Source: Limihaloglobus sulfuriphilus (GTDB taxonomy: Bacteria; Planctomycetota; Phycisphaerae; Sedimentisphaerales; Sedimentisphaeraceae). Taken from it: 64,000 bases of DNA. Location of the stretch: the NCBI RefSeq assembly GCF_001999965.1, contig NZ_CP019646.1, positions 2,046,001-2,110,000 on the forward strand, written 5' to 3'. Shown one piece after another: positions 46,836 through 52,261 of the stretch. Below the pieces are notes generated by a model. It saw nothing but the letters and a program-made list of their open reading frames with translations, did no database searches and had not been told where the DNA came from. The first letter of the stretch is position 1, and every line of letters begins with the position of its first letter. The position numbers were made by a program, and so were the translations under genes.

Positions 46836-49800
46836 TTAATTCTTTCTTAAATCAATTATTTCTATGAACACCTTGTCAGTATACTCATTTGGTATTTTCT
46901 TTTTGAGTAATGTATTCATCAATTTGAAATTCAATCGATTACCAAAATAAAACACGAGATAAATTCCATATTCTACTTTATTTAAAATATATTTATCAAT
47001 AAGTTGGTCTTTGACACCTTTATAAAGGTCTTTGTTTTTATCTTTCTTACATTCAATTTGAATTTCAAAATTCAATTCAGCTTTGTATTTCAGATTGATA
47101 TCAACACGATTGACTGCTTCGTATTTTTCTTTGGTTGCTATTACATCCTTTTCATACTTTAAGTTAAGAATATTAAGCAAAACGTCTCTACATGATTCCT
47201 CATTCTTTGAGGTTCCATCACTGCTATAAAAGAATTCCTTTTCGTTGTTCCTGTTTCCCTCTATCGACTTTTTTATATTTGAAATGCGTTTTCGCATTTC
47301 CATAAAGAAATCGCTCTTTGACAATATGGCGTCAGATAGCATAAAGTTTTTGATTTTCTCGATTTCATAAGCATCGTAGTTAACATCTGCTTCATTTTGC
47401 TCAAGCTTGCTTATTTGATGAAGGATTAGAGGTTTCCAAATATCATTTTCTAAATGAATTTTTCTTAATTCTTTAAGTTCTCCTAAGTCTAAAAAATTAA
47501 GAGAATTTTGACGCAGAAATGTGGCACACTGTTGTCTTATTGTTTGTATTCCACCTTTAAAGTCAATTAGCCTATAAGTGTTGAACTGTAGGAACATATA
47601 GTCCAAAAGCCTTAATTTTACAGACCTGTCCAATGAGTTAAACTTATCTTTAAACTCCTCACGACTCTTCTTAAGCAAGTCGTAAAGTTCTATTGCCATT
47701 TCGATTGTAAATTCACTTCTTTTTTGCTCTTTTATTACTGTAATAGCTTTCACTGCGATTACTGTTGCATTATCTTTAGAACTGTCCACTATTCTAGTTA
47801 AATGATCATTTTTTATATTGAAATTATAAATATGGACAAAACGATATATAATTAGCTCTCTCGCTGAATCTTTACCTACAACAAATCTAGTTGTCAAGGA
47901 TTTTAACACTCTCAATTCATCCTCTTTATCGATATATTCTTCAATGAAAGCCAGATCAGGCGTATAAGTTTCGATAAAAAGTTTAAGATAATCTTTTAAA
48001 ACAGTTTTCGCAAAAATGGGTTGTTTTTTTTCTATACAATCATCAAACTTGCCATGTGCAATATTACATGTATTTCTATGGATCAAACAATTAACATAAA
48101 GATATTCTTTTAATCCATCATCAATATCACCCAGTCTATATTCTTCATTCAACACACATGACACATGATATACGGTGTCAATCGCTCTGTTAGCTTTAGT
48201 AGCTTCACGAGCTAAACTTTGAAGAGTTGTATGTTCTGGAGAAATAGGTTTTCTATAAATAATATGTCCAAGTAAGCCTTTTAGCCGATCAAAAGTCGCT
48301 CGTTCTATATCTAACTCGGGTTCATGTTCAAAATAGCATTTCATTGCAATAAAGTGAAGTGCCCCAAAATCAGCTAAAACATCATGGTCAGTCATTTCTC
48401 GAAATGCAACTTCATTTTTTTCTTTAACTTCTCTTCTTTTTCTTTCTCTCTCTTCTCGTTTTCTTTCTCTTTCAATTTCCCATTCCTGCTTTGGGGGATT
48501 AAACCAATTACTAAAGGAGTCCTCAAGCTTATACTTTTTAGCAATTTTTCTTGCTTCGTCGAGCTGGCTCTGCTCACTCTTTGAAATACATCCAAGGTAA
48601 AAACGATATAAATTATTTCTCTTCTCTAAGGCAATGTCCTGATATTGCAGATACTTGAGGAATACGTCTTTCTGGTTAGTAGGAGAAACATATCCAAATA
48701 ATTCATCAAAACGAAATAATTTCACAATATCCTCTTCATGATTAATCCAATTACCAACGTACAAATCAAAAAGCGCATTGGCAAGCCGTTGAAATCTTAC
48801 TTGGTCCTCGCCGGGCATATCTTCAAACCTGTGCTTATATCGAGCTATTTGAATACCTTCATAGTCTAAATAGTATTGTTGAAAGTGGCAAAAAAGGTCA
48901 TATATTTTCTGGGCGTCAAAACCATTCTCGTATTTTAGAACAGTTTCCAGGAAATAATGCTCTACAAAATCTCTGACGTTTTCTGGTAAAACTGATTTCT
49001 TTAACTGCTCATTATAAGTATTTTTGTAAATATCATCAACTATTTCATATTTATAATCATATGGTGTATCATTTAAATAAAAGCAGTATCCTATTACTTC
49101 TTGATTATATAAAGAGACATATTTACCAATCTCCGAATAGCCTATATGTTTTGGATATAACGTTTTTAGTATTTGCTCTTTATAAGAATCACTGCTATCG
49201 TCTATTTCCCCGCGTCTTATACCATCTAAAACTTTCTTAAGAAATTCGATTTTATGAATAACTGCTTTAATGTGATATTTTGGATGGTTAAGCTTATTAC
49301 TCAATATTTTCGTTGTTAAATAACTTACCATCTTTTCACTTAAACAATCTGATGAATCAACAAGTATGTAAAGCAAAAACAACTCATAATGACTGTTTGC
49401 CTCTTGTGCTGCTTTTAATTCACTTATAAGAAAATCGTCTAACCCTATCTCATAAAAACCTGCTAACGGCTTGCCTTCGTAAAATTGACAGAAATATGGA
49501 TTTATTTTAGAGTGTTCTTTAACCGCAAGAATTATTTTTTCCTTCAGGTTACAATTAAAAAGCGAGTTATCTCCATGTATTGCTTGATAGTAAGGGTCTA
49601 CTGTATAGAAAAATTGGTCTTGCGTCATACAACAAAGCCACGCATAAGTACCCCTCAGCTCAGTAGGTATCTTTTTGTTATGCAAAAAGAGTGCTTTTAC
49701 CCTTTCTTTGTCTATCTGACAACCGGTATCAATTCTTTCAGTTTTTAGGATGTGGGCAAACGCATACTCAGCTATGGTTCTATGGCAAAACTCCCGGTTG

Positions 49801-50639
49801 TCAAATAGCTTTGACTTAAGAATAATATCAATATTACTCTTTGAATAACCATCGGGTTCACTCTCTATTTCATCTATCAAATCATCTGTAAATTTTCCTC
49901 GCCCAGATAAAATATAAAAAGCTGCCAAGTAACCAGTAATTTCAAAGAACTTTTCATTAGAGATACGGTTTAAATTGTTATGCTGATATTCTTCGTTTGT
50001 TTCCCGAGCGTTGTTAAAAAATTCTTTGTATAAATCTAACTTGGAATTTATAGTAATATTAGTAGAATCATTATAAATTCGGGCTAGCATACAAAACATT
50101 TGGGGATTGTCAAATAAGTTAGTGCCGCCAAATTTTTGAGTTAACTCAGCTATATTCAGATTAAATATTTCAGCTAAGTTTCTTTTTTCTTCGTCACCCA
50201 TCGGCAATATTTTATATATGCCAATTTCTCCGCTGATTTCTTCCTTTAAGGCCTTTACATCGTTTTCCCCATACCAGTCCATTTCTCTGCAGGATATAAC
50301 AATTTGTCGTGCACCAACCTTTCCTAATTCAGCTGCCAGTTCTTGTATCACAAAAGTCTTATCATTCGAAATACTTCGATATTCGTCAAGTCCGTCGACC
50401 AATAGAATTTTATTATTAAACTTGTAATCCTTTTGAATTTTCAGTAATTTCTTAACTGTTATGTACTCGGCGTTTTTCTCATTGTCCTGCTCATATTTTT
50501 TTAGTGTGGACGTTTTTCCGCTGCCGGGCATTCCCAAAAGGATTGTAACGTCATTTTTGCTGATTGCATTACCAAGAAAAACACTCTTCTCAAATTCTTT
50601 GGTTCGCTCTTGAAGCTGTAAATCTATATATTTATTCAT
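46836..50639 (-). CDS. NACHT-type STAND NTPase with C-terminal PD-(D/E)XK nuclease signature
   Basis: This 1267-residue protein is probably a defence or signalling ATPase. The NTPase has Walker A GMPGSGKTS (36-44), a Walker B with NACHT-like tail, ILLVDGLDEYR (78-88), and SCRE (116-119). A long helical middle (about 200-1130) with a Lys/Glu/Arg coil near 740-765 follows and may sense a ligand. The last ~130 residues contain E1147/E1148, D1180 (RVDI) and E1196-C-K1198 (IECKKD), a restriction-nuclease fold pattern. Base composition is AT-rich against both flanks. ATG 50639 overlaps the cyclase-like gene's TGA. Confidence 0.8.
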   Translation of the reverse strand: MNKYIDLQLQERTKEFEKSVFLGNAISKNDVTILLGMPGSGKTSTLKKYEQDNEKNAEYITVKKLLKIQKDYKFNNKILLVDGLDEYRSISNDKTFVIQELAAELGKVGARQIVISCREMDWYGENDVKALKEEISGEIGIYKILPMGDEEKRNLAEIFNLNIAELTQKFGGTNLFDNPQMFCMLARIYNDSTNITINSKLDLYKEFFNNARETNEEYQHNNLNRISNEKFFEITGYLAAFYILSGRGKFTDDLIDEIESEPDGYSKSNIDIILKSKLFDNREFCHRTIAEYAFAHILKTERIDTGCQIDKERVKALFLHNKKIPTELRGTYAWLCCMTQDQFFYTVDPYYQAIHGDNSLFNCNLKEKIILAVKEHSKINPYFCQFYEGKPLAGFYEIGLDDFLISELKAAQEANSHYELFLLYILVDSSDCLSEKMVSYLTTKILSNKLNHPKYHIKAVIHKIEFLKKVLDGIRRGEIDDSSDSYKEQILKTLYPKHIGYSEIGKYVSLYNQEVIGYCFYLNDTPYDYKYEIVDDIYKNTYNEQLKKSVLPENVRDFVEHYFLETVLKYENGFDAQKIYDLFCHFQQYYLDYEGIQIARYKHRFEDMPGEDQVRFQRLANALFDLYVGNWINHEEDIVKLFRFDELFGYVSPTNQKDVFLKYLQYQDIALEKRNNLYRFYLGCISKSEQSQLDEARKIAKKYKLEDSFSNWFNPPKQEWEIERERKREERERKRREVKEKNEVAFREMTDHDVLADFGALHFIAMKCYFEHEPELDIERATFDRLKGLLGHIIYRKPISPEHTTLQSLAREATKANRAIDTVYHVSCVLNEEYRLGDIDDGLKEYLYVNCLIHRNTCNIAHGKFDDCIEKKQPIFAKTVLKDYLKLFIETYTPDLAFIEEYIDKEDELRVLKSLTTRFVVGKDSARELIIYRFVHIYNFNIKNDHLTRIVDSSKDNATVIAVKAITVIKEQKRSEFTIEMAIELYDLLKKSREEFKDKFNSLDRSVKLRLLDYMFLQFNTYRLIDFKGGIQTIRQQCATFLRQNSLNFLDLGELKELRKIHLENDIWKPLILHQISKLEQNEADVNYDAYEIEKIKNFMLSDAILSKSDFFMEMRKRISNIKKSIEGNRNNEKEFFYSSDGTSKNEESCRDVLLNILNLKYEKDVIATKEKYEAVNRVDINLKYKAELNFEIQIECKKDKNKDLYKGVKDQLIDKYILNKVEYGIYLVFYFGNRLNFKLMNTLLKKKIPNEYTDKVFIEIIDLRKN

Positions 50640-51403
50640 ATAATTACTCCTTTAAGCGTCTCTGGCAGATTTTTGCATTCAAAACGTTCTCTGTAGTATC
50701 GTAGAAGCCAAACATACTTTAAATGTATTTTGGGGTTATCGTGGAATTCTTTTACCTTCCCATACAATATATTGATTATTTTCTCCTTATCTTGGTTATT
50801 TTGAACGTGATTCATAAAATCAATGAAATAAATAAGCCCGCCTTTTCTATTGAAGCATTTACTAAGACCAAAAAATTCCTTCTCGTTTTCGATTCGGCAT
50901 AAATCTCTAATTTCTTCTAAGTTTTGCTTATCTATACCAATTATGGGCCAATCAATTTTTGAATTCTCAATCTTTACTGACTTCGCAAGACCGCTGCTTA
51001 TTAGATAAGAATGATCTTTTCTGCAATCTCGTTGTTCTTCATAACTGGAGCCTACAGCAATTCCGCCTCTAATAAAATGACTGCATTCGAGGATAAATTC
51101 CTTCTGTTTTTCTCCTATTTTTTGAAAAAGGGTTTCTATTTCATCACATGAATAGTTCCTTTGTTTCAATATAAGGATTATACCATCTGATATTCTATTA
51201 GACTCGCAAACTTCAATGTCATAGAAACTACGTCGAAAACTGTCAAGTAGGTCTGATAGAGTTTTGTATTCGCTTTCTTTTTCCAAAGCATCAGAAAAAC
51301 CCAAAATATCAATCCATACAAATATACTTTTATTTAACGATAGAATAGTATTTTCAGGATTAATTTTCTTTTGCTCAAATAATTTGTTAAGTGATAATTC
51401 CAT
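50636..51403 (-). CDS. Cyclase/palm-fold-like protein, partner of the NACHT gene
   Basis: This 255-residue protein resembles a broad family with a nucleotide-cyclase or polymerase-palm fold. Key features are IDILGF (Asp32, potential metal ligand), ISDGIIL (Asp73), IRGGIAVG (111-118) and a later LAKSVKIE segment. The full class III cyclase set is not certain, so it may make or bind a nucleotide signal, or be a degenerate sensor. It is first in a two-gene AT-rich operon and overlaps the NACHT gene by 4 bp, strong evidence of a joint system. Confidence 0.7.
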   Translation of the reverse strand: MELSLNKLFEQKKINPENTILSLNKSIFVWIDILGFSDALEKESEYKTLSDLLDSFRRSFYDIEVCESNRISDGIILILKQRNYSCDEIETLFQKIGEKQKEFILECSHFIRGGIAVGSSYEEQRDCRKDHSYLISSGLAKSVKIENSKIDWPIIGIDKQNLEEIRDLCRIENEKEFFGLSKCFNRKGGLIYFIDFMNHVQNNQDKEKIINILYGKVKEFHDNPKIHLKYVWLLRYYRERFECKNLPETLKGVII

Positions 51404-51678: not shown

Positions 51679-51711
51679 TTGACATTTACTCATGATGTAT
51701 ATACAATATAC
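51679..51711 (+). promoter_or_regulatory. Promoter and autoregulatory palindrome of the relB-like gene
   Basis: TTGACA (51679-51684) and TACAAT (51702-51707) are 17 bp apart. The -10 lies inside the palindrome GTATAT-ACA-ATATAC (51697-51711), the expected arrangement for a RelB/DinJ autorepressor operator. Confidence 0.75.
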
Positions 51712-51751
51712 TTATCATAGATTTATCTTATATGTTATTAGTGAGTTTAAA

Positions 51752-52009
51752 ATGAGCATTGTAACAATAAACGCAAAGATAGACAGTGAGACCAAGAACG
51801 CGGCAAAAAGCGTCTTGAATGACCTTGGGTTGAACATGTCTGAAGCTATCAACCTGTTCTTCAAGCAGGTGGTTTATACCAAAAGTATCCCTTTTGAGCT
51901 GAAACTGCCCAACAAAACAACCCTTGAGACGTTCAAAAACACAGATAACGGCCGCGACCTGCACCGTGTCTCTGATGTCAACCACCTCGCTGAGGAACTC
52001 AACGATTGA
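51752..52009 (+). CDS. RelB/DinJ-family antitoxin
   Basis: This 85-residue antitoxin begins with the ribbon-helix-helix SIVTINAKIDSETKNAAKSVL, then LGLNMSEAINLFFKQVVYTKSIPFELK, and has an acidic C-terminus (AEELND). It would neutralise a YafQ/RelE toxin and repress its own promoter. ATG 51752 is chosen because it lies after the promoter and starts the domain. Its TGA overlaps the toxin's TTG start. Confidence 0.92.
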   Translation: MSIVTINAKIDSETKNAAKSVLNDLGLNMSEAINLFFKQVVYTKSIPFELKLPNKTTLETFKNTDNGRDLHRVSDVNHLAEELND

Positions 52010-52261
52010 ACATAGTCTATACAGGCAGGTTCAAAAGAGATTTCAAGCGTATGGTTAAGCGCGGATTTGACCAGAACAAACTCTTCGCCGCTGTAGAAAT
52101 ACTCGCAGCAGACCAACCCTTACCGGCTACATCCTCTTGTCGGGAATTGGCACGGACGGCGGGATTGCCATATCGAACCCGACTGGGTATTGATTTACTG
52201 TATCAGGGGTGACGATCTGATTCTTGAACGTACAGGCTCGCATTCTGATCTTTTCAGATGA
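52006..52261 (+). pseudogene. YafQ-like mRNA interferase toxin, frameshifted
   Basis: The frame opens with TTG 52006 (YTGRFKRDFKRMVKRGFDQNK), a normal YafQ start. After PLPAT at about 52130 it leaves frame and ends at TGA 52210-52212. The rest of the toxin is present in another frame: HPLVGNWHGRRDCHIEPDW (about 52131-52190), then LIYCIRGDDLILERTGSHSD to TGA at 52259-52261. About 10-11 bp, coding for YRD-like residues, seem missing at the junction. Catalytic His/Asp residues are therefore no longer made in frame. The intact antitoxin is next to it. Confidence 0.88.

Follow-up and report, generated by a model that had tools for sequence, protein, structure and literature searches.

A two-gene, AT-rich unit on the minus strand (positions 46836–51403) of the window, the 64-kb stretch of the Limihaloglobus sulfuriphilus chromosome analysed here, encodes a small protein predicted to adopt the class III nucleotidyl-cyclase fold, followed by a large NACHT-type protein that is related to the antiphage protein EruA and carries a putative C-terminal nuclease. 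We give an even chance to the reading that this unit is a horizontally acquired antiphage operon in which the NACHT-nuclease is functionally coupled to its cyclase-like partner. The first gene, P0002, spans positions 50636–51403 (255 aa), and the second, P0001, positions 46836–50639 (1267 aa). Stop and start codons share a 4-nt ATGA (50636–50639), and a Shine-Dalgarno-like site of the P0001 gene, AAAGGAG (50647–50653), lies within the end of the P0002 gene. The GC content of the two genes is 0.316 (P0002) and 0.323 (P0001), as against a mean of 0.476 in the rest of the window (sd 0.020, minimum 0.415, from 96 segments of equal size). The overlapping AT-rich pair described in a preliminary description, made from the letters alone, was thus confirmed at these coordinates. 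The overlap, the location of the ribosome site within the upstream gene and the near-identical low GC together suggest that P0001 and P0002 are expressed, and have been travelling, together. A scan for promoters and terminators gave nothing above chance.

The host chromosome is a single contig of 3.87 Mb. On one side the island is bordered by what we take, from reading the sequence, to be ftsY, the end of which lies 6 bp from that of P0001, and on the other by genes that we read in the same way as a relB-like antitoxin gene and gatB. Upstream of the island, on the opposite strand, the relB/dinJ-like antitoxin gene is followed by a frame-shifted remnant of a yafQ/relE-like toxin gene (51692–52213). 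No empty site was found at the ftsY neighbourhood of related genomes, where the gene order differs.

When compared with NCBIfam, P0001 matched the model for antiphage EruA (NF058535) with an E-value of 8.7e-99 and 332.2 bits, the match spanning residues 18–852 plus another C-terminal stretch; residues 1080–1235 matched the model for HyoA (NF058534; E 1.5e-10, 39 bits). Both scores fall below the curated cut-offs, which are 1000 bits for EruA and 1200 bits for HyoA. Since 332 bits is well below 1000, P0001 is, to judge by these scores, a divergent relative of EruA and not EruA proper. The Walker A motif GMPGSGKT (residues 36–43; 50511–50534) and the NACHT-type Walker B motif ILLVDGLDE (residues 78–86; 50382–50408) lie at the N-terminus, and G39, G41 and K42 of the former, and D82, D85 and E86 of the latter, were invariant in 19/19 aligned sequences. 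The Pfam NACHT model (PF05729) did not match P0001, which gave weak AAA matches alone (best E 0.012), so that the protein is called NACHT on the strength of its NCBIfam match and the motifs. Across Pfam, PADLOC and PHROGs weak P-loop matches alone were obtained, that in PADLOC being to mad8. The NACHT-type NTPase proposed earlier was nevertheless borne out by the NCBIfam match, as one of the antiphage EruA/HyoA kind. A literature search for EruA and HyoA found no report, and both are known here from NCBIfam alone.

The C-terminus of P0001 (residues 1128–1267; 46839–47258) contains the PD-(D/E)XK active-site pattern (E)...D...(E)xK...Q and may form a nuclease of that kind. Its five residues, E1147, D1180, E1196, K1198 and Q1212, were invariant in 19/19 sequences and also in an 8-member subset. 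P0001 thus shows both features of the EruA/HyoA-like superfamily, the NACHT-type Walker A/B core and the invariant C-terminal E/D/ExK/Q residues. A profile of the C-terminal region matched no PDB chain, and no Pfam nuclease model matched the P0001 C-terminus. All the motifs that the preliminary description had named in this protein were therefore present (GMPGSGKTS, LLVDGLDE, D1180 and E1196-C-K1198) and, being invariant across the aligned relatives, are not due to chance. The nuclease motif is not peculiar to this locus: it is common to all the EruA-like relatives aligned, and its invariance in 19/19 makes it, within this alignment, a trait of the whole family.

Of 392 genomes of the phylum, 18 had a match to the EruA-like family (17 besides that containing the window), and further matches lay on proteobacterial plasmids and in six viral contigs; the genes on plasmids have defence genes beside them, ppl, Abi and SIR2 among others. 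When a Pantoea EruA-like sequence was searched for in E. coli with blastn, no matches were obtained. In a maximum-likelihood tree, P0001 grouped with the proteobacterial plasmid EruA-likes (support 100/99) and not with its planctomycete relatives. The same group includes the protein encoded on the Vibrio plasmid pVIBHAR (locus L004), which is a true EruA (1478 bits), while a HyoA-like protein (L042) lies on another branch. The P0001 branch is the longest in the tree (2.54), and the program warns that a branch of such length cannot be placed with certainty; with that proviso, the position of P0001 among the plasmid proteins, apart from its planctomycete relatives, fits a horizontal arrival.

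Sequence searches gave little information on P0002. No credible match was found in Pfam, NCBIfam or PADLOC, and the best Pfam matches (TPR_Trm732 and L544_NTransf) were discarded because they scored under the cut-off and disagreed with the fold; PHROGs gave one match, to the function-unknown family phrog_23933 (E 8.5e-12). Searches with peptide patterns found no close homologues. Homologues were collected stepwise, and an alignment of P0002 with 30 of them was used for AlphaFold2. The resulting model (pLDDT 84.8, pTM 0.83, 31 sequences) superseded a poor one obtained from the single sequence (pLDDT 41). When it was compared with the PDB using Foldseek, the best 50 matches were all class III nucleotidyl cyclases, the first of them with an E-value of 8.4e-7 and a TM-score of 0.60 by target length. 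When the profile of the P0002 family was compared with that of genuine class III cyclases from the phylum, an E-value of 5.2e-6 was obtained (probability 86%, 144 columns); used alone, the family profile reached PDB adenylate cyclases at E 0.015. The Pfam model Guanylate_cyc did not match P0002. By predicted structure and profile-profile comparison, P0002 is thus a protein of class III nucleotidyl-cyclase fold, in agreement with the cyclase/palm fold that had been suspected from its motifs. Five family members from Bacteroidota and an archaeal MAG (L009, L064, L068, L079 and L085) are proteins of ∼600 aa whose C-terminal half is the cyclase-like domain.

The motifs noted earlier in P0002 (IDILGF, ISDG and RGGIAVG) are all present. 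The two metal-site aspartates, D32 in IDILGF (51308–51310) and D73 in ISDG (51185–51187), were invariant in 31/31 sequences and align with the Asp of FADI.GF and with IGDA, respectively, in cyclases. For part of the sample the pattern scans demanded IDILGF or RGG, which introduces some selection for D32 and R112. No such selection applied to D73, and members found by profile only (L088–L091) also keep D32. The transition-state Asn and Arg of class III cyclases align with positions 140 and 144 of P0002. Position 140 is Ile, Val or Ala across the family (A in P0002), and position 144 is mixed (K in P0002). The family looks like a cyclase-fold protein in which the metal site has been kept and the chemistry changed, and ordinary synthesis of cAMP or cGMP by P0002 is doubtful because both transition-state residues have been lost. 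Of the cyclase-like protein proposed earlier, the fold and the metal-binding aspartates are upheld, while the transition-state residues of working class III cyclases are absent.

The pairing of the two genes was examined in both directions. Among the 392 genomes, 18 had an EruA-like match and 19 a match to the small family, and four had both (G000, G152, G210 and G391; ∼0.9 expected by simple proportion); the two genes are adjacent in the window's genome alone. A small-family neighbour was absent from all 28 other EruA-like loci (8 plasmid, 14 from the phylum and 6 viral, some of them truncated), and an EruA-like neighbour was absent from 48/48 small-family loci other than the window. The pair is a singleton in the sample. 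By the standard of the preliminary description itself, it would count against the proposal if homologues of the two never occurred together; outside this locus they never did, in a sample containing no close P0002 homologue for a proper test. At locus L128, a NACHT-WD40 gene (L128:2064-8548) was considered as EruA-like and rejected, given its weak match (49 bits), its PRTase-CE and WD40 domains and its opposite orientation. This PRTase-CE/NACHT/WD40 gene lies ∼1.5 kb from the divergent small-family gene.

These counts bear on a different explanation, namely that P0001 is a complete single-gene defence like EruA and the P0002 gene a chance passenger of a defence island that happens to lie upstream. 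The lack of co-occurrence elsewhere in the sample speaks for it, as do the true EruA on pVIBHAR, which has no small-family partner gene beside it, and the changing neighbours of the small family. Against it stand the ATGA overlap, the ribosome site within the upstream gene and the near-identical low GC. P0001 departs in this respect from the single-gene EruA/HyoA-like pattern: P0002 overlaps it, whereas 28 relatives have no such partner. A joint function is favoured by this physical coupling, though not yet by comparative genomics, and we consider the passenger explanation rather unlikely, if still a serious one.

The small family itself was sampled at 49 loci, that of the window included. In 7/49 a gene for a ParA-like ATPase lies directly upstream and touches or overlaps the small-family gene. 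This two-gene unit of a ParA-like ATPase (∼350 aa) and a P0002-family protein (L060:6958-8717, L061, L062, L063, L073, L077 and L080) occurs in Pseudomonas, Buttiauxella, Herbaspirillum, Rheinheimera, Paenibacillus and others, as well as in viral contigs. To our knowledge the unit is undescribed, and it could serve in defence or act as a partition-like module. Type I restriction-modification operons contain or adjoin small-family genes at three loci (L083, L087 and L129), and others have nearby GajA/GajB (L008), an Mrr-type nuclease (L088), a SIR2-like gene (weak match; L125) or an AAA_15 ATPase with a type IIG-like methylase (L085). Ordinary neighbours were also seen, such as AlaRS (L067) and a GLUG-repeat protein (L123). 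Judged from these listed neighbours, the small family is often in defence surroundings. At L082 (6696-13173), the small-family gene is followed by genes for a metallo-beta-lactamase-fold protein and a 1282-aa trypsin-like protein, possibly a protease-linked defence cluster. A broader and quite tentative idea, to which we give less than an even chance by a wide measure, is that P0002 founds a widespread, undescribed defence-associated family of class III cyclase fold that retains the metal site but performs another chemistry or only senses nucleotides. Its members would serve as signalling modules beside ParA-like ATPases and restriction-modification systems, and in the present locus P0002 would license the NACHT-nuclease.

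For the preferred reading, that of a coupled antiphage operon, the following scheme can be proposed. NACHT defence proteins are known to work by sensing, NTP-dependent assembly and effector activation. By this mode, P0001 would sense an infection cue and assemble by means of its NACHT NTPase at the N-terminus and its long helical middle; assembly would activate the PD-(D/E)XK-like nuclease at the C-terminus, which, as its invariant motif suggests, would cut nucleic acid. P0002, made from the same message, would most likely bind a nucleotide or modify it in a non-standard way, and so supply a nucleotide- and metal-dependent input to P0001; it would be an added sensor or a licensing partner rather than an ordinary cAMP/cGMP cyclase. 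Nucleotide signalling between P0001 and P0002 is plausible. The gene structure, the family relationships, the invariant motifs and the cyclase fold of the model are observed; the defence function, the nuclease activity and the functional coupling of the two proteins are our inferences. In favour of the coupled operon are the kinship of P0001 with antiphage EruA and HyoA, the invariant nuclease motif, the fold and metal aspartates of P0002, the frequent defence genes around its family, the overlap and the shared low GC. Counting against it are the failure to find the pair in a second genome, the single-gene state of EruA, and the lack of a match between P0001 and the Pfam NACHT model, between its C-terminus and any PDB chain, and between P0002 and any PADLOC model.

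P0002 might instead be an active cyclase or polymerase, producing a second messenger that activates the NACHT-nuclease, by analogy with CBASS or Pycsar. Class III cyclases make the Pycsar signals, and P0002 has both their fold and the two invariant metal aspartates. Class III cyclases without the Asn are reported to be active, for example Rv1900c (cited in PMC4886424), so cyclase activity of P0002 is conceivable. However, the Asn and Arg positions are both replaced across the family, EruA-likes occur without the small gene, and no cyclic-nucleotide-binding domain was recognised in P0001 by Pfam, NCBIfam, PADLOC or PHROGs; a messenger of this type is accordingly improbable. Less probable still is that P0002 acts like an antitoxin and holds the nuclease off until infection: antitoxin genes usually precede toxin genes in operons, and the P0002 gene is likewise first, overlapping and translated before P0001, but EruA-likes are found without any such partner, so restraint is not generally needed, and no antitoxin-like features were seen.

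In the light of what is known, P0001 is one of the EruA/HyoA-like proteins; the novelty lies in its cyclase-fold partner and in the apparently undescribed family behind P0002. NACHT proteins of the EruA/HyoA type seem to work singly; a coupled, cyclase-shaped partner, if true, would be the first hint of how this group of C-terminal-nuclease NACHT proteins is gated. The P0002 family, which has retained the metal site, lost the transition-state residues and acquired a recurrent ParA-like partner, offers a concrete new target in the search for nucleotide signals in bacterial immunity.

Among known systems, Pycsar resembles this unit in that a putative effector gene comes after one for a protein of class III cyclase fold, but the second gene here encodes a NACHT-nuclease and not a cyclic-nucleotide-binding TM or TIR effector; the PADLOC Pycsar models matched neither protein, and P0002 had no PADLOC match at E ≤ 1. 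Class III adenylyl and guanylyl cyclases share with P0002 the fold and the two metal aspartates, and differ from it in their transition-state Asn and Arg, which P0002 lacks, as it does a match to the Pfam model Guanylate_cyc. Like P0002, the nucleotide cyclase-like proteins with DUF2652 (Ramakrishnan et al. 2016; PMC4886424) are soluble, divergent class III-like proteins in which the metal aspartates are kept and some catalytic residues changed; theirs is another Pfam family, matched by 0/33 members of the P0002 alignment. HyoA is similar to P0001 in the C-terminal region (residues 1080–1235), but the 39 bits obtained compare with a cut-off of 1200, and the HyoA-like protein L042 sits on a separate branch. 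With EruA, P0001 shares the NACHT-type N-terminus, the long helical middle and the C-terminal E...D...ExK...Q motif; it differs in its score under the cut-off, its branch, the longest in the tree, and the overlapping cyclase-like gene, absent beside the EruA of pVIBHAR. The clade 6 NACHT defence proteins bNACHT25 and bNACHT32 also link a NACHT module to PD-(D/E)XK, a likeness that for P0001 is motif-based; their PD-(D/E)XK DNase is needed for defence, and bNACHT25 degrades DNA by means of this domain (PMC12169576). In those proteins the DNase is N-terminal and the C-terminus senses, whereas in P0001 the nuclease motif is C-terminal and Walker A lies within the first 45 residues.
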